From assembly GCA_003250355.1 (NCBI GenBank), contig QKGS01000101.1:1-64000 (forward strand): a DNA stretch of 64,000 nucleotides, given 5' to 3'. The notes under the pieces were generated by a model that saw nothing but the letters and a program-made list of their open reading frames with translations, did not search any database and had not been told where the DNA came from. This DNA comes from Bacteroidota bacterium (GTDB lineage: Bacteria; Bacteroidota; Bacteroidia; Bacteroidales; SZUA-534). A program made the position numbers and the translations under genes. The first letter of the stretch is position 1. Each line of letters opens with the position of its first letter. This document shows positions 89 through 7,392 of the stretch, one piece after another.

Positions 89-116
89 ATGAATGATAAT
101 ATATAATATTGCTAAA
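89..116 (+). other. Left dif-like attachment site (attL)
   Basis: XerC-like arm ATGAATGATAA (89-99), core TATATA (100-105) and a divergent right arm ATATTGCTAAA (106-116). The left arm and core match the 7365-7392 site while the right arm does not, as expected if the host kept its XerC arm and the element supplied the XerD side. A short echo, AATATTGCAAAA, lies at 70-81. Confidence 0.65.
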
Positions 117-182: not shown

Positions 183-494
183 TTATATTTTAGTAGCTTT
201 TAAAACCAACATTTGACCAGTATGTTCTGTAGTTATAAGGGAGCTTATTTTTTGAGTAATTATACCCGAAAAATTATCGGCTAAATCCTCAAAAGCAACC
301 CCATGATACTCAAAAAAATATCGAACATTAGAAAGATTAGTACTAGATAATACCATATAATAATCTTTATCATTTTTAGGAATTGAAAAACCAGTTTGTA
401 AATTCAACAGAAGAGGTCTAATATAATAATCACACCCAGTATCATAAAACAATATATCACGAAACAACTCAACAGAATCTTTATAATTTCTCAT
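183..494 (-). CDS. Phage hypothetical protein, 103 aa
   Basis: I do not recognise this protein. It is soluble-looking, with mixed charge, no signal peptide and no membrane segment. It is the last gene of the minus-strand phage block, overlaps the 3' end of the 61-aa membrane gene before it by 14 bases, and is followed by a strong terminator. Position at the end of a structural operon could suit a minor virion or host-takeover function, but nothing in the sequence decides this. Base composition matches the rest of the element, not the flanking chromosome. Confidence 0.6.
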   Translation of the reverse strand: MRNYKDSVELFRDILFYDTGCDYYIRPLLLNLQTGFSIPKNDKDYYMVLSSTNLSNVRYFFEYHGVAFEDLADNFSGIITQKISSLITTEHTGQMLVLKATKI

Positions 495-666
495 TTTTTC
501 TAATTTTTAAACGCTTAATTAACTTTTTTTCAAAATAATAAGTAAATAACCTAACCGATATAGCTATAATAATAATTTTCAACTCATCATAAACCGATGT
601 CAATAATTCAGTTGAAATAACTATGTTTGCTAATAATTCACTTATAATAACTAAATACTTTTGCAT
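481..666 (-). CDS. Phage small membrane protein, 61 aa
   Basis: A hydrophobic stretch around residues 30-46 (LKIIIIAISVRLFTYYF) is followed by a strongly basic tail rich in Lys and Arg, suggesting a single membrane span with a cytoplasmic C terminus. It overlaps the next gene (183-494) by 14 bases, so the two are likely translationally coupled. Small membrane proteins of this type are common in lipid-containing or holin-bearing phages; holin is one possibility. No family is recognised. Confidence 0.5.
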   Translation of the reverse strand: MQKYLVIISELLANIVISTELLTSVYDELKIIIIAISVRLFTYYFEKKLIKRLKIRKNEKL

Positions 667-903
667 ATGTTTTTAAATATTTTCAGTAAAGCTTCAAACC
701 TTTTCTATAATTGTGAAAACCCATATCATAATGAAATGATAGATTTCAATTTTGAAAGAATAGTAATATGGACAATAATATTCGCAATAATCGGATTCAT
801 AACAACAATAATAACAGGTTACAAATACCTAAAACTTTTTGGAAAAATAATAGAATACATTTACGAATTCATTAAAATGAAAATTAAACAATCAAAGAAT
901 TAA
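667..903 (+). CDS. Small membrane protein on the opposite strand, 78 aa
   Basis: This is the only plausible plus-strand gene in the element. The ATG at 667 is preferred over an in-frame TTG at 661. A hydrophobic segment at about residues 30-48 (IVIWTIIFAIIGFITTIIT) is followed by a basic tail, giving a one-span membrane protein. The minus strand across 667-883 is full of stop codons, so the reading frame is not a shadow of another gene. It starts back to back with the 481-666 gene and its end overlaps the end of 884-1306. It could be an independently expressed holin, exclusion protein or toxin; no family is recognised. Confidence 0.45.
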   Translation: MFLNIFSKASNLFYNCENPYHNEMIDFNFERIVIWTIIFAIIGFITTIITGYKYLKLFGKIIEYIYEFIKMKIKQSKN

Positions 904-1306
904 CACCCTGTATTTCTGTTTTTTTCCAAATATCATACATTCGCATACGATTTTCCCCAGTAAGTTCTTTGTCATACCATTGCATTAAATCGAGCTTATA
1001 ACCGATAAAACCAAAAGGAGAACCACCAAAAGAACGTGCCTTTTTACCGAATATGTTATAAACATAAATTAAATCGTCTTTATTCAAACCAAATAAAGTA
1101 CCAAATAATACAGATTTATTAAAACCAAGTTCCCTCAAAGAAGAGTATTGAGCATCAGCAATAACAGCCAACTCACCTTTACTCTTAGACAGACCAAAAG
1201 AATTATAAAAAAGACTTAAATTATCTTTTTTTCTCATTCTTAAAAAAAACAATAGCCCGAATATTGACAGGGCTATTGTTAAAATCATTATAAATTTATC
1301 TTTCAT
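884..1306 (-). CDS. Phage membrane-anchored protein, 140 aa
   Basis: Residues 5-22 form a hydrophobic segment followed by RMRKK, so the protein is probably anchored with its body in the cytoplasm or virion interior. The remainder is a small alpha-helical domain with aromatic and basic residues (a WYDKELTGENRMRMYDIW stretch near the C terminus). Its start codon overlaps the stop of the lytic-protein gene before it (TAATG). Placement within the virion-like operon suggests a virion membrane protein or lysis component. No family is recognised. Confidence 0.6.
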   Translation of the reverse strand: MKDKFIMILTIALSIFGLLFFLRMRKKDNLSLFYNSFGLSKSKGELAVIADAQYSSLRELGFNKSVLFGTLFGLNKDDLIYVYNIFGKKARSFGGSPFGFIGYKLDLMQWYDKELTGENRMRMYDIWKKTEIQGVNSLIV

Positions 1307-1716
1307 TACAACAAACTAACTGCTTTACTATACATTGAATCAGTAATAACATAATTACTTTCAATTTTAGCAATTGCTTTAATAACACTTTTTAACGAAT
1401 CGGGTGTAAAATCTATATTTTTACCTGCTCTAATACCTGTAATATTTTCAACTTGTTGAATATATTTATCGGTATCATTTTCAACAACAGGAGCATAACG
1501 CTTGACAATGCCTTTAATATCATTAATATTATACTTTTCATGATAAGTTTGTAATAATTTTATAATAGCTCTAATTCCATATTCATAAGACTTAAATTCT
1601 TCAAACTCATTATCCTGTTTTAATGGAGGTTTAATTTTTCCAAGCCAATCATTACTAACATTATAACGTATATTTCCAACGTTCCTATTTCTTATACCCC
1701 GAGTTTCAGAACTCAT
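1306..1716 (-). CDS. Virion-associated lytic/structural protein (RGIRNxNxGNIR family)
   Basis: The N terminus carries RGIRNRNVGNIRY, then W-L-G and FKSYEYGIRAIIKLLQTY, followed by APVVENDTDKYI. This combined pattern is typical of small phage virion proteins thought to have a lysozyme-like or transglycosylase fold that opens peptidoglycan during entry or exit; similar proteins occur in tailless membrane-containing phages as well as tailed ones. The length of 136 aa is normal for the domain. It has no signal peptide and follows the 47-aa membrane gene within the same operon. The family assignment is from motif memory; the exact enzymatic activity is unproven. Confidence 0.75.
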   Translation of the reverse strand: MSSETRGIRNRNVGNIRYNVSNDWLGKIKPPLKQDNEFEEFKSYEYGIRAIIKLLQTYHEKYNINDIKGIVKRYAPVVENDTDKYIQQVENITGIRAGKNIDFTPDSLKSVIKAIAKIESNYVITDSMYSKAVSLL

Positions 1717-1720
1717 TATT

Positions 1721-1864
1721 TTACTTTTTTTTTTTTAAAAAAGGCAATTTCTCCTGCAACCAATACCAAAATCTCTGCAGCTTACCAGTCTTAAATAAGT
1801 ATATTACAGATATAACAAGGGCAATAGACAACCCAAGAACTAAATAGAGTTTTTTATTTTTCAT
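1721..1864 (-). CDS. Tiny phage membrane protein, 47 aa
   Basis: I translated this by hand from the minus strand: ATG at 1862-1864, stop TAA at 1721-1723. The product has MKNKK, then a hydrophobic span LYLVLGLSIALVISVIYLF (residues 6-24), then an aromatic and basic tail ending in KKKK. It fills the gap between the 61-aa gene (1878-2063) and the lytic protein gene with only a few bases on each side, which supports it as a real member of the operon. A single-span protein of this size could be a virion membrane protein or holin. Confidence 0.6.
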   Translation of the reverse strand: MKNKKLYLVLGLSIALVISVIYLFKTGKLQRFWYWLQEKLPFLKKKK

Positions 1865-1877
1865 TTTACCGTTTTTA

Positions 1878-2063
1878 TTATTTCGTACCATTTTCTTTTA
1901 CTTTATTATTATTATTATTATCATTTGTTTGATTCTCTGATATTAAACCCAAACGTTTAGCACTTGCAGAAGTAGCAGCAATACCCTCCTGAACACTTTG
2001 AACAACTTTCAACACGTCGGAAACTTTATCCAACACATTAAACATTTTAGACACAAATCTCAT
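1878..2063 (-). CDS. Phage small helical protein, 61 aa
   Basis: The first 40 residues are amphipathic helix (MFNVLDKVSDVLKVVQSVQ), followed by a poly-Asn low-complexity tail (NDNNNNN). The start codon overlaps the stop of the preceding gene as TAATG, indicating coupled translation. It has no signal peptide. A small virion-interior or scaffold-like role would fit its place in the structural block, but this is inference and no family is recognised. Confidence 0.55.
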   Translation of the reverse strand: MRFVSKMFNVLDKVSDVLKVVQSVQEGIAATSASAKRLGLISENQTNDNNNNNKVKENGTK

Positions 2064-2494
2064 TATTTACTACTTACATGAATTTTACCAAAATAATCTT
2101 TACCACAACTTGCAACCATACCGAACCGGGATACATATAATTTTTTAGATTTTCGCTTAAAAATGGCTATGCCCGAAAAAAACTCTTTTGAACGTGAATC
2201 CCTAGGAGTAACCTCAGCTTTATACACCCAACGTTCATTACCGTTTGAAGTTACATTCGAATAATCCTTTCCATAACGGTCAGGGTATTTATTTTTTAAA
2301 CTCTTTGCACCGTCAGAAGATAAAGGATAGGCAGTCAGTTTAACAAAACCTTTAACCTTAGAAGCATTCCAAGCATTAATTACCTCTTTTAATTGACCGT
2401 TTGAATTTTCGTACTTTGTCAATTTTGCACCTGATTTTTTCTTATAATCCTTACCACTTTGATAATTATTATTATTCCATTTATTATTTGCCAT
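2063..2494 (-). CDS. Phage basic protein, 143 aa
   Basis: The start is set at the Met of MANNKWNNNNY (2492-2494), directly after the stop of the 536-aa gene; a longer version from 2533 would overlap that gene by 38 bases. The protein is basic, starts with an Asn/Lys-rich flexible stretch and continues as a beta-rich domain with many aromatic residues (ERWVYKAEVTPRD, KKLYVSRFGMVA). This resembles small DNA-binding or capsid-associated proteins of ssDNA phages, but I do not recognise the family. Placement is between two virion-like genes. Confidence 0.6.
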   Translation of the reverse strand: MANNKWNNNNYQSGKDYKKKSGAKLTKYENSNGQLKEVINAWNASKVKGFVKLTAYPLSSDGAKSLKNKYPDRYGKDYSNVTSNGNERWVYKAEVTPRDSRSKEFFSGIAIFKRKSKKLYVSRFGMVASCGKDYFGKIHVSSK

Positions 2495-2495
2495 A

Positions 2496-4106
2496 TTATT
2501 TTTTAAAAGCGTTAAAAATACCACGTAAAGCAAGGGTTAATATAGTAATACCCGCAGTAACCTCAACAGGGTTTTCTTTAGCCAACTCAACTATTTTTGA
2601 ACTACGTTTAACAACAACCTCATTGCCATCAACACCACGAGTAACTTTTTTATCATTATCAGAAATAGACTTCTGATAATCAACAGACAATAAATTACCT
2701 TTATTATTCAATTCAATAGATTTAACTTCATTCGGTGTTCTACTATCAATAATAACAATAGGCATATTATAACGTTTCTGAATATCAGTAATAAACCCCT
2801 CAACATTAGAAGAAACAGGAGAAACCCCACGACTAGACAACAAAGAAACAACATCTTTTTTATCAATAGTTGGAACTTTATAACGAGCTAAACCAATAAA
2901 AGCCTCATTTAAATAACCACTATTAATAATATAATCCCAAGCCCAACCATAAGGAGGAGTCGAAACAGGAATGCTTCGAGAATAACCAAACAACATCAAA
3001 AAGTCTCTAACAAGCTCATCCTTACTTTCAGTCATAAACTTAGAAGTAAACTCCTTTTTATAAACATCATATTTAGAACTAAATAACCTTTGACGCTCAC
3101 GAGCTTCAAACATTCTCTTATTTCTATCTTCTAATTTTTTAGATAACAAATTTTTCTTGTCTTCCTGAATTTTACGCTCTTCCATAATTTTACGCTCTTC
3201 CTGAATTTTAACCTCATCAAATAACTTTTGCTGATTAATTAAAATTTGATTAGTACCAGTTTTTTTATACTCTTCTGACTGCTTTAACAATTCTTTTAAA
3301 TTACCAAGCTCAACAGAAGACATATTATCCAACTTACCAGTTGACTTTAACAAATCAAAAGTTGACATATTAGACATACCAACCGTAGTCTTTAATTGCT
3401 GAACGATAACATCTTTAGAAGCCATATCAGGAATAGACGATATTTTACCAATAGCATCTTTAGAACGATTCGCTAAATTTTTAGCCTCTTCAACCTGACC
3501 AACCAATTTATTAACATCATCAAACATTTGCTTAGATTCTTTAATCATATCAGCACACTGTAAAGAAGAATCAATAGTTTCAGAAAGTTGCTGCAAACCT
3601 TTCATTGCAAAATAAACACCATCGGAAATAACGGGACCAATAACAGGAATAAATTCCGAAGCCTTTTCCGCTAAAAACGCCAACTTATCCAAAACACCAT
3701 TTTTTGCAATAAAATGGTTAACATCCTTAACAAGAGTTAAAATATCCATTCCCAAGTAACCGAAGTCCTTCATGAATATTTCATAATCTTTAGGCAAAAA
3801 CTCAATTTTCTTTTTAATCACCTCAAAATCAGTAACACGCCCTTTTACAAATTTTTCAACATTAGAAAAATTGGCAACATCAACAGAAACCGAATGTTTA
3901 ACCTTATTAAAAAAATCAGATACACTACTTGAAGGATTTTTAACAACTTTAAAAATATTGGACGCATCAACAGAAAGCGAACGCCCAACATTATTAAAAC
4001 CATTCGAGACAGCTTTTACAGGATTCTTAAAAAGATTGGAAGTTTTACTTCCAAAATTCTTAAAACCACCTGAAACACTTTTTCCTATATTTTTAAAAAA
4101 AGACAT
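2496..4106 (-). CDS. Large phage virion-like protein with coiled coil and C-terminal membrane segment, 536 aa
   Basis: The N-terminal 80 residues repeat a motif of the type GFxNxGxxxSxxF with SVDASN/SVDVAN, giving amphipathic basic repeats. A hydrophobic helix lies near residues 150-165 (EFIPVIGPVISDGVYFAM), a Lys/Glu-rich coiled coil near 270-350, and a C-terminal segment VTAGITILTLALRGIF near 511-531. This layout (membrane-active N part, long helix, terminal span) suits a minor virion protein that crosses or remodels the virion membrane during DNA delivery. The gene starts inside the stop codon of the 242-aa gene (TAATG), so the two products are made together. It is not a microvirus capsid protein. 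Confidence 0.65.
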   Translation of the reverse strand: MSFFKNIGKSVSGGFKNFGSKTSNLFKNPVKAVSNGFNNVGRSLSVDASNIFKVVKNPSSSVSDFFNKVKHSVSVDVANFSNVEKFVKGRVTDFEVIKKKIEFLPKDYEIFMKDFGYLGMDILTLVKDVNHFIAKNGVLDKLAFLAEKASEFIPVIGPVISDGVYFAMKGLQQLSETIDSSLQCADMIKESKQMFDDVNKLVGQVEEAKNLANRSKDAIGKISSIPDMASKDVIVQQLKTTVGMSNMSTFDLLKSTGKLDNMSSVELGNLKELLKQSEEYKKTGTNQILINQQKLFDEVKIQEERKIMEERKIQEDKKNLLSKKLEDRNKRMFEARERQRLFSSKYDVYKKEFTSKFMTESKDELVRDFLMLFGYSRSIPVSTPPYGWAWDYIINSGYLNEAFIGLARYKVPTIDKKDVVSLLSSRGVSPVSSNVEGFITDIQKRYNMPIVIIDSRTPNEVKSIELNNKGNLLSVDYQKSISDNDKKVTRGVDGNEVVVKRSSKIVELAKENPVEVTAGITILTLALRGIFNAFKK

Positions 4107-4834
4107 TAATCCTGAAACTCTTTAATTAATATAACTTCAATAGAAAACGAATTTTTCTCAAACTCAATAGACTCAACACCGTCAACATTCATACGAAATA
4201 ACTTATCATAACCGTAAGTAATAGAACCACCAGCGGCACTAGTCATACGAATAATATCATTTTGTTTACGTTGCTCATGTTCAATCTCTTCAACTGATTT
4301 AACGACAGTAACACCAGTTTTATATTTAATACGAGCCTTAAAGATTCCATTAGACGGTACAAAAATTTCCTTATAGTCTCCAATAGAAACTAATACCTCT
4401 GTTTTGTCAGCTTCAAAGAACAATTTACTATACTCAAATGCCTTATCAACATAAGTAGAACTTTCAACACCCCATATTTCACTAACAGTTGAAGCATTAA
4501 AAACAGTTATAGACAAATACCGATTATTACCCAACCTAATACCGTCTAAACCTAAAGTAACTTCGCACCAAGTACCAGTAACAGAATCGCTTATATAATA
4601 ACCAACACCATTAGCAGATATTTCTGCAAGTTTTCTCAAAGATATTCGCTTAACAAGTGGAATCTCTTCAGAAGTTTCTGAATTAACAATATCAACACTA
4701 ACTTCAATTAAATTAGTATCAAAATCGGCATAAGTAGTAGGAGTAGTAGACAAATGAAAATATAAACCTTTAATCGGTTTTTCAACTTTCAAATTTTCGA
4801 TAATAGAATTAACATTTCCTGAAATTAACTTCAT
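4106..4834 (-). CDS. Candidate major capsid protein (double jelly-roll type proposed), 242 aa
   Basis: This is the first gene of the structural operon, after a terminator hairpin. The protein is dominated by predicted beta strands separated by short loops, has no signal peptide or membrane segment, and opens with a strand-rich block containing LISGNVNSIIENL and LRKLAEIS and closes with VDGVESIEFEKNSFSIEVIL. Length and pattern recall the 269-aa capsid protein of phage PM2 and the roughly 300-aa capsid protein of FLiP, which are double jelly-rolls. No other gene in the element is a plausible capsid protein. The assignment is by style and position only; a beta-rich spike or minor capsid protein is the alternative. 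Confidence 0.45.
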   Translation of the reverse strand: MKLISGNVNSIIENLKVEKPIKGLYFHLSTTPTTYADFDTNLIEVSVDIVNSETSEEIPLVKRISLRKLAEISANGVGYYISDSVTGTWCEVTLGLDGIRLGNNRYLSITVFNASTVSEIWGVESSTYVDKAFEYSKLFFEADKTEVLVSIGDYKEIFVPSNGIFKARIKYKTGVTVVKSVEEIEHEQRKQNDIIRMTSAAGGSITYGYDKLFRMNVDGVESIEFEKNSFSIEVILIKEFQD

Positions 4835-4872
4835 TGTTTTTCTTTTTAATTGTTATTAATAATTACACAACA

Positions 4873-4899
4873 AAGAAAAAGCGACTTAATAAGCCGCTT
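4873..4899 (-). terminator. Terminator between replication and structural genes
   Basis: Imperfect stem AAGCGACTT (4879-4887), loop AAT, AAGCCGCTT (4891-4899), followed on the minus strand by TTTTTCTTT. It lies between the end of the HTH gene (4928) and the start of the candidate capsid gene (4834), so it separates early from structural transcription. Confidence 0.6.
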
Positions 4900-4900
4900 A

Positions 4901-4942
4901 TACCATTTTACACCATTTTACACCTTTTTACACCTTTTTACC
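4901..4942. repeat. Four tandem 10-bp repeats (iteron-like)
   Basis: Units of the form CACC(A/T)TTTTA recur with an exact 10-base period from 4901 to 4942: two with A, then two with T. The period is one helical turn, so a protein bound to each unit would sit on one DNA face. The array overlaps the stop codon of the HTH gene (4928-4930) and adjoins the terminator hairpin. It may be an operator or replication iteron. Confidence 0.6.
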
Positions 4943-5131
4943 TTTTAAATAGCTTATTTGGTCTAAAACAACATCATGAGGCACACCCTCATACTCTGAA
5001 ATATGAAAAACGTTAATCCTATTTGACCTAATCATAAAATAATTAATTATTTCTTTTTTTCTCATTATTGCCGTTTTTTTAGAACATTCATAATATTTTT
5101 GAATATCCTTAATACATAAAGGTTTATACAT
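4928..5131 (-). CDS. Small phage HTH-like regulator, 67 aa
   Basis: The N-terminal half (LCIKDIQKYYECSKKTAIMR) reads as a helix-turn-helix of the excisionase/MerR-like style seen in tiny Bacteroidetes phage regulators, followed by a basic segment and ISEYEGVPHDVV. Size and composition fit a DNA-binding regulator. Its last codons run into a tandem array of 10-bp repeats that could be its own binding sites. It lies between the replication genes and the structural operon, where a switch protein would be expected. The precise family is not certain. Confidence 0.55.
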   Translation of the reverse strand: MYKPLCIKDIQKYYECSKKTAIMRKKEIINYFMIRSNRINVFHISEYEGVPHDVVLDQISYLKGKKV

Positions 5132-5148
5132 AATTTATAATTTCTGCT

Positions 5149-5172
5149 TAGAGGTGGCGTAGCACACCTCTA
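5149..5172 (-). terminator. Hairpin after the 95-aa gene
   Basis: Perfect 8-bp stem TAGAGGTG (5149-5156) and CACCTCTA (5165-5172) with loop GCGTAGCA. It lies between two minus-strand genes. With no clear T-run it may be a weak terminator or a processing or replication hairpin. Confidence 0.4.
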
Positions 5173-5175
5173 TGT

Positions 5176-5463
5176 TTAAAATAGAATAGATTGAATATCT
5201 TTAATATATAAATGAGGTTGGTAACAATCAATCTCGATTATTTTATTATCAAAATCAATAACATGAACATTCATACCGTTAGACATTTTCACCCAGAAAA
5301 AAACGTCAACTTCAATCGTAAATGAAAATTTCAATCTTAATCTTTTACGAGAATCGAATTCTTTAACCAATTGCATACTACTAATAGCAACAACACCCCA
5401 TTTTTTCAATAATGATTTAAATAAATCAGAAAAAGAATCATAATTAATATTATATACATTCAT
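5176..5463 (-). CDS. Phage hypothetical protein, 95 aa
   Basis: This small protein of mixed helical and beta character contains FSFTIEVDVFFWVKM in the middle and no signal peptide. It overlaps the end of the Rep C-terminal reading frame by 14 bases, so it is probably expressed from the same message. Proteins encoded next to Rep in ssDNA phages are often involved in replication or single-strand binding, but no motif here shows that. No family is recognised. Confidence 0.5.
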   Translation of the reverse strand: MNVYNINYDSFSDLFKSLLKKWGVVAISSMQLVKEFDSRKRLRLKFSFTIEVDVFFWVKMSNGMNVHVIDFDNKIIEIDCYQPHLYIKDIQSILF

Positions 5464-5833
5464 AACACAATTGTAATTGAGTTGACAAAAAAGGATTTAC
5501 AATTTCTTTTTTAACAACTGTTAAAACTTCTTTCATTTTATTTTTAAATAACAACGAAGGGGAATACAATTTCAAACGAACTAATTCCCGAGACCATCGA
5601 ACCAACTCAACCAAACGAAAGGGCAACTCATATAATTTATTAAAAGAATAATTAACCGAAGAAAAAAAATCACCCTCATAATACTGATAAATATCTTTTC
5701 CAGACTTCTTGCACTTTATAGGCTTTTCAACTTTTTTACTTTCCAAATATGCAACATATTGTTGTTCAAGTTCATAATCAACACATTCAATATTTTTATC
5801 AAGATTTTGCAAATTCTCTTTGAACAAAACCAC
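5450..5833 (-). pseudogene. Rep C-terminal part in the shifted frame
   Basis: The frame beginning at a GTG (5831-5833) continues the Rep sequence one frame away from the 5716-6504 gene. The natural join is Rep ...GRLWFCSK followed by ENLQNLDKNIECVDYELEQQ, giving a fused protein of about 351 aa, a sensible size for a phage Rep. The change occurs at 5818-5823, where the minus strand reads TTCAAAGAG; one extra A there would restore the frame. TTCAAAG is not a canonical -1 slippery heptamer, so a one-base deletion or a sequencing error is more likely than programmed frameshifting. Independent restart at GTG is also possible. Confidence 0.55.
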
Positions 5834-6504
5834 AAACGACCCTCCAAAACTCTTTTACCATTTATCAGTATTGAAGAATCAATATGATTCAGATCAGGTT
5901 TTATATCTTTATCATCTTTACTTATATATTTTGCTACATATGCAACAATATCTTTTATACCCTTAGTTTGGTGAATATCACAAGCGTTTGGCAGTTTATC
6001 AGTATCATTATTTTTCTGATATTCCGAAACATAACCGTACTTTTCAATTATTCTACACCATATTTTATTTAGCTCTTTATAATGTAGTCCTGAATCTGTG
6101 AGTATATGAAAATGTATTTTACCGTTCTTTTGTAACTCTGCTTTCCACAGATAATTGAATTCTGATTTATTAATATTTCTTAACTCAACAAAAAACTGAT
6201 TCAAACATTTAGATTTGATAAATACATCTGAGTGCATTTGTTTAGATGGTAAGGTAAGAGTAATAAACGGCAACCTATATTTTATCTGCTTTCCATCTAC
6301 ATTAATATATTTTTCAGGTGCCAACTCACAAAGCCACTTTGTCGCATTTATCATACGTGTTTTAGCCTTTCGAGAAAGCCGACCTTTATACTTGTTTTCT
6401 GATAAATTGCGCTCTTTTATTTCATTACGCTTACGCATATTCTCCGTAACATTATACCGAACAAACTTGTTATTTTGAATATTAATATATGGTACTTGAT
6501 ACAT
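5716..6504 (-). CDS. Rolling-circle replication initiator (HUH endonuclease), frameshifted
   Basis: The three HUH motifs are present in order: FITLTLP at residues 80-86, the metal-binding HFH at 131-133 (GKIHFHILTD) and the catalytic tyrosine region YVAKYISK at 189-196, with Tyr189 and Tyr193. Such enzymes nick the plus-strand origin and stay linked to the 5' end during rolling-circle replication; the layout is that of replication proteins of Bacteroidetes ssDNA phages. After residue 229 the frame departs into a short Lys/Leu-rich tail while the expected continuation lies in the overlapping -1 frame (5450-5833). The catalytic core is intact, so the truncated protein might still nick DNA. Confidence 0.85.
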   Translation of the reverse strand: MYQVPYINIQNNKFVRYNVTENMRKRNEIKERNLSENKYKGRLSRKAKTRMINATKWLCELAPEKYINVDGKQIKYRLPFITLTLPSKQMHSDVFIKSKCLNQFFVELRNINKSEFNYLWKAELQKNGKIHFHILTDSGLHYKELNKIWCRIIEKYGYVSEYQKNNDTDKLPNACDIHQTKGIKDIVAYVAKYISKDDKDIKPDLNHIDSSILINGKRVLEGRLWFCSKRICKILIKILNVLIMNLNNNMLHIWKVKKLKSL

Positions 6505-6556
6505 TATTTATGTTTTAGACTTTTTTTTTTGAGTTGTGGAACATTTGACAAGCCAA

Positions 6557-6598
6557 CCAAAACAGGAGAGGGACACGCCTTTCCCCTCCTGTTTTTGG
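6557..6598. terminator. Long hairpin between early genes and rep (terminator or replication origin)
   Basis: CCAAAACAGGAG (6557-6568) pairs with CTCCTGTTTTTGG (6586-6598), and GGGA (6570-6573) with TCCC (6582-6585), leaving an 8-base loop CACGCCTT. It follows the stop of the 55-aa gene (6604) and precedes rep. It could end the first two genes in either direction. A GC-rich hairpin next to an HUH rep is also what a rolling-circle nick site looks like. Confidence 0.55.
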
Positions 6599-6603
6599 AA
6601 TGT

Positions 6604-6771
6604 TTAATAATCTCTTAAAATCCTATCAATTACTTCTTTAGACATATTCAACTGACACCTATCATAAAACTTTTTTTCAATAGGTTCAAAAGAATTATCA
6701 ATTTTTTCATGTAACATTTTAAAAACCTCTAGATATATTTTTAAAAACTCTGTTAATTCAAAATCTATCAT
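6604..6771 (-). CDS. Small phage protein, 55 aa
   Basis: I translated this by hand: ATG at 6769-6771, stop TAA at 6604-6606. It is a short, charged, mostly helical protein (MIDFELTEFLKIYLEVF at the start, SKEVIDRILRDY at the end) with no membrane segment. Its ATG overlaps the stop of the 183-aa gene as ATGA, so the two are translationally coupled. The family is not recognised. Confidence 0.55.
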   Translation of the reverse strand: MIDFELTEFLKIYLEVFKMLHEKIDNSFEPIEKKFYDRCQLNMSKEVIDRILRDY

Positions 6772-7319
6772 ATTACTAATTTTATTAATTTAACTTCATT
6801 CATTTCAGGCATTTGCACAATTTCAACAGCTGTATCAATACTATAATTATTTAGTTTATTCTTTTGTTCTAGTAATCGAATCTGTAATGATTTACATTGA
6901 TGAACAGTAATAGTATCAGAACGCTTTTTATTAATCATAAGGACTAAATTAACCTGATTGATTAACGCAGTAATAGCATTATTAAGATAGGAAAACACAA
7001 ACCATTGATAATTTACAGTTTTACGACTAAAAGCATTATCAATAGATTTTGAAAACAAAAACCGATTATCAATAATTTTACTATCAATAGAATAATCAGT
7101 ATTTAACAAAAATATTTTATTGGTTAATTCATGTACATATGAATCAATAGTAACAACCTCATAAGCAATTTGAGATATTGCCTTTGTACATTTATTAAGA
7201 AATATTTTAGCATTTTTTTCTGAACTAAATTCATTTACTGAACCATTGCCAAGAGTAACACGATAGACAGATTTTGAGCTATTTATTTTGGTTATTGATT
7301 CAAAAACTATCTTTTTCAT
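6768..7319 (-). CDS. Phage early hypothetical protein, 183 aa
   Basis: This is the first gene of the element as read from the right attachment site. It is soluble, with a short N-terminal beta-rich part (VYRVTLGNGSVNEFSS) and then a long mainly helical part; there is no signal peptide. The start lies 46 bases from the right dif-like site, so its promoter must lie within or beside that site. Early position suggests regulation or replication, but no motif supports a specific role. The family is not recognised. Confidence 0.6.
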   Translation of the reverse strand: MKKIVFESITKINSSKSVYRVTLGNGSVNEFSSEKNAKIFLNKCTKAISQIAYEVVTIDSYVHELTNKIFLLNTDYSIDSKIIDNRFLFSKSIDNAFSRKTVNYQWFVFSYLNNAITALINQVNLVLMINKKRSDTITVHQCKSLQIRLLEQKNKLNNYSIDTAVEIVQMPEMNEVKLIKLVI

Positions 7320-7364: not shown

Positions 7365-7392
7365 TTGAATGATAATATATATTATGTTAAAT
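7365..7392 (+). other. dif site / right attachment site (attR)
   Basis: The 28-base site has left arm TTGAATGATAA (7365-7375), core TATATA (7376-7381) and right arm TTATGTTAAAT (7382-7392). The right arm is identical to the XerD arm of E. coli dif and the core differs from it by one base. This is probably the site at which XerC/XerD resolve chromosome dimers, still functional after the phage element inserted on its left. Confidence 0.8.

Follow-up and report, generated by a model that had tools for sequence, protein, structure and literature searches.

The left part of the window, that is, of the whole 64,000-nt stretch of Bacteroidota DNA that was analyzed, contained a group of minus-strand genes between two dif-type sites. 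Homologues are named below from phage phiCjT23, Cellulophaga phage phi12:2 and related elements in Labilibacter marinus and genomes G103, G261 and G320; pairwise similarities are given as the number of 500 shuffles that reached the observed score, a pair being at chance when more than 50 did so.

89–116 (+), left attachment site with the same left arm and center as the right site and a degenerate right arm (21 of 28 positions equal)
183–494 (-), 103-aa protein in the spike or vertex slot, placed by position only
481–666 (-), 61-aa single-span protein (hydropathy)
884–1306 (-), 140-aa protein in the phiCjT23 gp12 slot with one membrane span at the N terminus (phmmer E 1.8e-11 to a Labilibacter protein of 138 aa, 100-protein set)
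1306–1716 (-), 136-aa peptidoglycan-degrading protein with the motif RGIRNRNVGNIR, putative virion entry or lysis enzyme
1721–1891 (-), 56-aa single-span membrane protein (hydropathy; 0/500 against 57 aa of the G261 element)
1878–2063 (-), 61-aa small protein, phiCjT23 gp9 slot (0/500 against Labilibacter 51 aa, 18/500 against gp9)
2063–2494 (-), 143-aa homologue of phiCjT23 gp7 and of the virion protein phi12:2 gp6
2496–4106 (-), 536-aa protein, phiCjT23 gp6 slot, with degenerate N-terminal repeats and a weak C-terminal hydrophobic stretch (position, hydropathy, repeats)
4106–4834 (-), 242-aa protein, very probably the major capsid protein (MCP), expected double jelly-roll (DJR), homologue of phiCjT23 P5 (profile, hhalign and Labilibacter homologue)
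4928–5131 (-), 67-aa HTH-like protein, phiCjT23 gp4 slot (0/500 against phi12:2 gp3, 1/500 against gp4)
5176–5463 (-), 95-aa protein (ORF only)
5450–5833 (-), 127-aa ORF overlapping the Rep end in another frame, possible Rep continuation (frames read)
5716–6504 (-), rolling-circle replication initiator (Rep) of G2P type, 262 aa (Pfam PF23343, E 3.5e-12)
6768–7319 (-), 183-aa protein kept in the Labilibacter element (phmmer E 2.4e-6 in the 100-protein set; 0/500)
7365–7392 (+), chromosomal dif site and right prophage end, unique in its own genome when up to 3 mismatches are allowed

Dif-type sites were present at both ends of the element, full on the right and degenerate on the left. The 16-bp direct repeat within them (90–105 and 7366–7381) was weak alone, as shuffles reached a shared run of 15, and weight is carried instead by the match to dif, which was found in single copy in each of 20 host-family genomes (up to 2 mismatches). 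The distance between site starts, 7276 bp (approximately 7.28 kb), was inside the 6.0–8.4 kb range of phiCjT23-like prophages (PMC9719478). The Labilibacter element adjoins TPR-gyrA genes; in the G103 element only a 13-base repeat of other sequence was noted, and no TPR gene was seen in its 12-kb locus. Further ORFs within the window element were one of 55 aa at 6604–6771 and a plus-strand ORF at 661–903.

The 242-aa ORF, put forward in the original prediction as a candidate DJR capsid gene, was present on the minus strand, whereas the element shuffled 200 times by mononucleotide had no run without a stop longer than 151 codons; the proposed overlap with the 536-aa ORF was found at base 4106. 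The protein had no family match in Pfam or PHROG, and single-sequence phmmer matched no capsid in the PDB. The entries that were matched, 7awz (which we take to be a designed propeller, E 3.1e-7) and 3hxj (E 1.6e-4), covered approximately 40 residues at 188–229 only and were set aside as local repeat-like similarity, both being absent at E ≤ 10 with a two-row profile. Single-sequence searches found one clear relative, a 236-aa protein from the syntenic element of L. marinus (E 2.3e-14 in the single-sequence survey of the order sample). In that sample, 23 of 393 genomes reached E ≤ 0.1, the best value besides the window and Labilibacter being 2.3e-4, and in the phylum sample 6 of 395 reached E ≤ 0.01, namely the window and five at E 0.001–0.01. 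A tblastn search of the phage collection returned two Cyanophage records (E 0.1, 25% over half of the query), and scans of viral contigs and genome contigs with the single protein gave nothing useful.

Profiles were more informative. The sole PDB match at E ≤ 10 of the two-row profile (window and Labilibacter) was 7zzz, phiCjT23 P5, at E 6.8e-7, with positions 14–239 colinear on 14–231 over nearly the whole length. The six-row profile matched further entries, 4r1h (E 0.0087) and 3ebv (E 1.2), and no FLiP chain was among its matches. In hhalign, comparison with the capsid proteins of phi12:2, Omtje, phiCjT23 and G103 gave E 3.3e-11 and a probability of 97.2 over 214 columns. The score of the 242-aa protein alone was reached by 0/500 shuffles against each of the G103 and G261 homologues and by 1/500 against the phi12:2 capsid, whereas it was at chance against P5 (206/500) and the G320 homologue (161/500); thus, the tie to P5 emerges only with the profile. 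Six further genomes with synteny (Labilibacter, G103, G261, G320, phiCjT23 and phi12:2) carried a capsid homologue at the corresponding place in the gene order. In other genome samples, a three-row profile gave five matches at E ≤ 0.01 among 395 from the class, G1077 being one of them (0.006), the six-row profile found 1 of 20 in the host family, this being the window itself, and a capsid profile found 2 of 149 in the G103 family at E ≤ 0.001, the second at 3.9e-4. Among viral contigs, a capsid profile recovered phi12:2 and one close kin, and the Labilibacter and phiCjT23 proteins recovered no relative. The capsid also provides a search seed, in that a profile of two or three sequences finds such capsids, which single-sequence searches nearly miss.

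Both AlphaFold models of the 242-aa protein were of low confidence (mean pLDDT 47.3 and 51.3), the second, made from a four-row alignment, being hardly better than the first. For each of these low-confidence models, P5 (7zzz) was nevertheless the first and only Foldseek match in the PDB at E ≤ 0.001 (4.9e-6 and 4.0e-6). In VIA-align, 7zzz scored Z 8.8 with the first model, slightly above the 7–8 usual for models without a clear match, and ranked 7 with the second (Z 4.8, rmsd 14.2); no named capsid protein was among the 50 matches listed from the viral structure library. Both low-confidence models had a helix at 181–187/191, within the second domain. The solved P5 is a DJR protein of 239 residues known from cryo-EM, and its second domain bears the FG2 helix (PMC9719478). 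Two upright jelly-rolls, as in the Bamfordvirae-type DJR lineage, are expected from homology to this solved MCP, the protein's own models being of low confidence. The DJR capsid assignment of the original prediction was thus supported by the profile ties to P5 and by the gene order of ssDNA DJR phages, while the nearest solved relative was phiCjT23 instead of PM2, FLiP or PRD1.

The ssDNA Rep context that had been proposed was borne out by the upstream initiator, which also matched PHROG 3419 (E 2.2e-14) and the Labilibacter Rep (phmmer E 5.4e-41, 100-protein set). Beside it, the 127-aa ORF was compared with the Labilibacter Rep at chance (138/500), as were the 95-aa protein with a Labilibacter protein of 73 aa and the 183-aa protein with phiCjT23 gp2. 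The 67-aa protein owes its HTH label to a Pfam hit of E 0.074.

Among structural-module genes, the 536-aa protein was weakly similar to gp6 (4/500), at chance against the 216-aa G320 protein and without relatives among viral contigs. The membrane segment claimed for it corresponded to a hydrophobic C-terminal stretch at 516–534, but this peaked at 1.54 Kyte-Doolittle, under the 1.6 cut. The 143-aa protein was similar to the gp7 group (hhalign E 2e-5, probability 77) and to phiCjT23 gp7 itself (1/500), and its virion kin in phi12:2 belongs to PHROG 20522. A profile of the window and Labilibacter pair recovered one of its own members in each survey, the window among 395 from the class and Labilibacter among 71 from its family, with no further match, and neither the pair nor the gp7 group had a relative among viral contigs. 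The lytic protein with RGIRNRNVGNIR, also foreseen, was assigned by PHROG 873 endolysin (E 7.7e-37), phiCjT23 gp10 (phmmer E 5.2e-22, 100-protein set) and the PDB entries 9vvp Gp29 (E 2.2e-13) and 7q47 endolysin (E 4.8e-7), while PF01832 stayed below its cut-off of 30.2 bits (E 0.0013, 19.9 bits). Short single-span proteins, likewise predicted, were those at 1721–1891 and 884–1306. Comparisons at chance were those of the 56-aa protein with gp11 (323/500), the 140-aa protein with five gp12-slot proteins including gp12, the 61-aa protein at 1878–2063 with a 64-aa G320 protein, the 61-aa protein at 481–666 with two proteins, and the 103-aa protein with each of six distal proteins. Several comparisons of spike, gp6-slot and gp12-slot proteins between the relatives themselves were at chance too.

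These results indicate that the 242-aa protein is very probably the MCP of a temperate, tailless, icosahedral phage of phiCjT23 type, present as a prophage between the two sites. Capsid homology, gene order, Rep family and location at dif are shown by the sequence itself. By analogy with phiCjT23, the protein would fold as two upright jelly-rolls and form trimers, approximately 200 of which would make up the shell, pseudo T=21 in phiCjT23-like phages, and enclose an inner membrane. Rolling-circle copying by the G2P-type Rep would yield circular ssDNA, the form expected in the virion; host XerC/XerD would serve entry to and exit from the chromosome at dif, and the 136-aa protein would open peptidoglycan on entry or exit of the particles presumably produced.

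It is very unlikely that the 242-aa protein is instead a minor component with a jelly-roll, serving as penton base or spike, the main shell being built from another ORF such as the 143-aa protein. The latter is better conserved between the window and Labilibacter (53–54% versus 21–23% identity for the 242-aa protein) and has virion kin in phi12:2, but the 242-aa protein aligns nearly full-length with a solved 239-aa MCP and has homologues in the same slot in the six syntenic genomes, and no PDB entry matched the gp7-group profile below E 0.57. That the element is a filamentous or microvirus prophage carrying a G2P-like Rep, and that its 242-aa protein has no capsid role, is barely credible. 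Such phages also use dif, and of the ten nearest Rep records in the phage collection four were labeled Inoviridae and four Microviridae; however, Pfam and PHROG showed no microvirus capsid (VP1) or Zot-like family among the ten main proteins, no Walker-A motif was present in 16 window ORFs scanned, and the homology to P5 by two-row profile and hhalign contradicts this reading.

That the capsid homology is right and the prophage has decayed to a remnant at dif that makes no particles any more is possible, though we consider it the lesser chance. The Rep stops at 262 aa (379 and 346 in kin) and is followed by the overlapping ORF, so that its frame may be broken near 5830 and the prophage possibly defective. 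No spike gene was recognized in the window element, and its vertex slot encodes just 103 aa as opposed to the 231-aa distal ORF of Labilibacter, which is weakly similar to phi12:2 gp10 (14/500). On the other hand, the structural ORFs are uninterrupted, and the frame change comes after the catalytic domain of Rep (the PF23343 stretch, 80–197). The missing spike match is weak evidence, since most of the comparisons made between relatives' distal proteins were likewise at chance; against P13, the single spike protein of phiCjT23-like phages with its small-barrel penton domain, the 103-aa protein (293/500) and the relatives' distal proteins (58 to 417/500) were all poor.

The element, read as a phiCjT23-type prophage, is a new, deep-branching member of an already known kind, the Bacteroidota phages that have ssDNA and a DJR capsid and integrate at dif. 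Phages of this kind are relevant to how the large lineage of DJR viruses arose; in the literature considered, the named isolates come from Flavobacterium and Cellulophaga. Flavobacterium phage FLiP (Finnlakeviridae) is likewise of the ssDNA DJR kind, with a lytic protein among its structural genes. The FLiP genome is 9174 nt, its Rep belongs to another G2P-named Pfam family (PF05144), and within the 100-protein set none of its proteins gave a match to those of the window. Its capsid, 311 aa as annotated, was at chance against that of the window (93/500), the phiCjT23 and FLiP capsids also being at chance (288/500). With the Obscuriviridae (Cellulophaga phages phi12:2, phi18:4 and Omtje; known isolates infect Cellulophaga), the element shares a homologous capsid, the 143-aa virion protein family and the gene order. 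Their core Rep_trans initiator (PF02486 in phi12:2) and core glucosaminidase (phi12:2) were not found, PF23343 and the PHROG-873 lytic protein being present instead.

Agreement was closest with phiCjT23 (Kejzar et al., 2022; PMC9719478). The genomes are 7642 and approximately 7276 nt and the MCPs, homologous by profile, 239 and 242 aa. Both have dif sites, and an integrase is neither annotated in phiCjT23 nor found among ten window proteins scanned. As is a feature of phiCjT23-like phages, the initiator gene is followed in proximity by the MCP gene, and both genomes have the order Rep, small HTH-like protein, MCP, gp6 slot, gp7-like protein, small proteins, RGIRN lytic protein and membrane protein, with synteny extending to the Labilibacter, G103, G261, G320 and phi12:2 genomes. 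Differences are the Rep (PF23343 versus Rep_trans in phiCjT23), the gp6 slot (536 versus 168 aa), the 283-aa phiCjT23 spike, which has no recognizable counterpart, and the host, of the order of Labilibacter as opposed to Flavobacterium.

The element of L. marinus Y11 (NZ_LXYE02000038.1) has homologues of the Rep and HTH-like proteins, the MCP and the 143-, 61-, 136- (lytic), 140- and 183-aa proteins. Its gp6-slot protein (265 aa versus 536) has no detectable similarity, its 231-aa distal ORF is without counterpart in the window, and it contains additional ORFs of 68 and 83 aa. Tentatively, these two elements might represent a separate family-level ssDNA DJR lineage in the order of Labilibacter in which a G2P-type Rep is joined to the capsid of phiCjT23, the window member having a much enlarged membrane-associated gp6-slot protein and vertices closed by a penton of approximately 100 aa without a long spike. 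The capsid gene suggests a further bacterial order as home to this rare kind of virus, and a capsid branch found there beside a different Rep suggests wider travel of the capsid module and its pairing with different replication genes.

The features of the window to which the following results refer are:

89-116, left site of the element, a degenerate partner of the dif site
183-7319, minus strand, series of ORFs (read from 7319 down to 183)
1306-1716, slot of the peptidoglycan-degrading enzyme
3852-4099, repeats at the N-terminus of the 536-aa ORF
4106-4834, minus strand, 242-codon ORF without a stop, candidate capsid gene
5450-5833, 127-aa ORF overlapping the Rep ORF
7365-7392, right site of the element (dif)

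The 242-codon ORF belongs to the minus-strand series. Mononucleotide shuffling of the 7.3-kb element, repeated 200 times, gave a longest stop-free run of 151 codons. The G+C content of the element stretch was 28.4% as opposed to 34.9% for the remaining window. Searches with the 242-aa protein identified no Pfam family at its cut-off, no PHROG family better than E 0.03 and, by tblastn of a phage collection, just two records at E 0.1. A phmmer search of the PDB with this sequence alone returned, below E 1, only two stretches of about 40 residues from non-capsid proteins, both of which were lost once a profile was used. The single outstanding match in an order sample of 393 genomes was to a 240-aa frame (E 2.3e-14), the source of which, reached via a scan with the 143-aa protein of the element, was Labilibacter marinus Y11, placed by NCBI in Marinilabiliales.

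A profile built from the window and Labilibacter proteins only (A2) was searched against all PDB sequences and gave one match at E<=10, to the major capsid protein (MCP) P5 of Flavobacterium phage phiCjT23 (7zzz_J, E 6.8e-7), with positions 14-239 aligned on residues 14-231 of 239. P5 is described as a solved double jelly-roll (DJR), the smallest known at publication (PMC9719478). The original prediction of a DJR capsid protein was supported by homology, from which the 242-aa protein is almost certainly a DJR major capsid protein. In profile-profile comparison of A2 with the capsid proteins of phi12:2, Omtje, phiCjT23 and G103 (a class-sample genome with a related element), the probability was 97.2 and E 3.3e-11 over 214 columns. 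Pairwise z scores of the 242-aa protein were 9.1, 7.5 and 3.6 against the proteins of G261 (another such genome), G103 and phi12:2, respectively, and at chance level against those of phiCjT23, G320 (a third such genome) and FLiP, so the link to phiCjT23 depends on the profile. When P5 was added to A2, the resulting profile detected five of 395 class genomes at E<=0.01, including that of the window; the other matches were G103, G261 and G320 (E 2e-28, 3.6e-20 and 3.2e-13), which all hold the capsid homolog in an element of similar gene order, and one at E 0.006. The window element is very likely a phiCjT23-type prophage, and it is new and deep among phages of this type.

AlphaFold models of the 242-aa protein, predicted from two-row and four-row input, had mean pLDDT values of 47.3 and 51.3, respectively, and the two-row model was fairly confident at about 141-180 and 211-230, both in its second half. 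By Foldseek, 7zzz was the top match of both (4.9e-6 and 4.0e-6) and the sole PDB match at E<=0.001, with poor superposition (TM 0.38 and 0.29). By VIA-align, 7zzz matched the two-row model with Z 8.8 and rmsd 2.5 over 102 residues, and the DJR capsids of EhV-201, PR772 and PM2 (P2) were among many unrelated cupins in the best 50 rows; for the four-row model, 7zzz ranked 7 (Z 4.8, rmsd 14.2). These predicted models lend mild support to the DJR reading.

In phiCjT23 the gene order is Rep, gp4, MCP, gp6, gp7, gp8, gp9, gp10 (RGIRNNNPGNLR), gp11, gp12 and spike, and the window encodes, in turn, the Rep, a 95-aa protein, the 67-aa HTH-like protein, the MCP, proteins of 536, 143, 61 and 56 aa, the 136-aa lytic protein and proteins of 140, 61 and 103 aa. 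Homologs of the Rep, HTH-like, 242-aa, 143-aa, 61-aa, lytic and 140-aa proteins occur in the same order in the Labilibacter element, which, like that of the window, adjoins a TPR gene and then gyrA. The 143-aa protein groups with phiCjT23 gp7 and phi12:2 gp6 (hhalign E 2e-5, probability only 77; 1 of 500 shuffles reached the score against gp7), of which phi12:2 gp6 carries a virion-protein annotation, and the lytic protein matches PHROG 873, PDB phage proteins and phiCjT23 gp10. The type of peptidoglycan-degrading enzyme differs between elements in one common slot (window 1306-1716 and loci L037, L038, L039 and L046), being PHROG-873-type or a homolog in the window, Labilibacter and phiCjT23, a glucosaminidase in G103, G320 and phi12:2 and a phage lysozyme in G261. 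The degenerate repeats of the 536-aa ORF lie 87 and 33 bases apart and possibly encode amphipathic repeat helices. No Walker-A motif was present in 16 scanned window ORFs, and FLiP is likewise described as having no packaging ATPase (PMC5894146). No spike was recognised in the window element; a 231-aa distal ORF of the Labilibacter element was weakly similar to phi12:2 gp10 (14 of 500 shuffles), with 56 to 423 of 500 shuffles against four other distal proteins.

The Rep of the window, Labilibacter and G261 elements belongs to PF23343. That of phi12:2 was just above the PF02486 cut-off and those of phiCjT23 and G320 below it, while FLiP Rep matched PF05144 and G103 Rep no Pfam family at E<=0.1. 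The window Rep ORF, shorter than its Labilibacter and G261 kin, ends after 262 codons and is continued in another frame by the 127-aa ORF, a change that may reflect sequencing error, mutation or frameshift. With this frame change and no recognised spike, the prophage may be inactive. In a seven-row capsid tree, window and Labilibacter were grouped (support 97/95), these and G261 were split from phiCjT23, phi12:2, G103 and G320 (98/95) and two other forks were left undecided. The 98/95 split coincides with that between PF23343 and other Reps, which is a hint, and only a hint given seven rows and the long branches of window, G320 and G261, of joint movement of capsid and Rep on the PF23343 side.

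The right site (TTGAATGATAATATATATTATGTTAAAT) is the sole copy in the host genome at <=3 mismatches, and its 22-base core occurred exactly once per genome (<=2 mismatches) in 20 of 20 host-family genomes, compared with one occurrence, in one of the 20, for the reversed core. The core was 52 bases from the TPR gene in the window and 59-72 bases from it in 7 of the 19 other genomes; in the remaining 12 it was distant, on a different contig, or the TPR gene was not found. Core and TPR gene were both seen in 7 of 12 opened loci from the 19 genomes. The capsid gene was detected at E<=0.01 only in the window genome among the 20, so the sites in the other 19 are without this element. The left site is identical to the right in left arm and centre. 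The window starts at the first base of the contig, and positions 1-144 are the exact end of contig C44, which carries the chromosome beyond the left site (aroC, aro genes). This assembly break at the left prophage end could reflect excised or circular copies in the sequenced DNA. Direct repeats of 14, 21 and 20 bases with TTATGTTA- or TAATGTTA-like sequence flank the Labilibacter, G261 and G320 elements, and the G103 element has only a 13-base repeat of different sequence. The dif-like repeat (18-20 bases) of the G320 locus, L039, is present in three copies (1481, 2231 and 8956), which may mean that a further small element or a remnant lies next to that prophage. We infer that XerC/XerD carry out integration of the window element.

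With P5 as tblastn query, the Cellulophaga phages phi12:2, phi18:4, phi12a:1, phi48:1 and Omtje (Obscuriviridae), treated in PMC8776804 and PMC11946311, matched at about 36% identity. The phi12:2 and Omtje records, with a capsid protein about 36% identical to the phiCjT23 DJR protein, are labelled Microviridae. For phi18:4, a 2025 paper names gp08, also called glucosaminidase, as MCP (PMC11946311); homology points to gp4 rather than gp08. The Obscuriviridae capsid was likened to that of FLiP in 2022 from predicted structure (PMC9239249), and the family is listed by ICTV without a realm (PMC12451628) and assigned to Varidnaviria in a 2025 preprint (PMC12324425). DJR contigs are reported from Bacteroidetes genomes (PMC5894146) and FLiP-like prophages from Sphingobacteriia (PMC13269007); no phiCjT23-type prophage outside Flavobacterium was found in the literature searched, which covered few subscription journals. 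The phiCjT23-like prophages of Flavobacterium are likewise described at dif (PMC9719478), as are microviral prophages of Bacteroidetes (PMC3091885).
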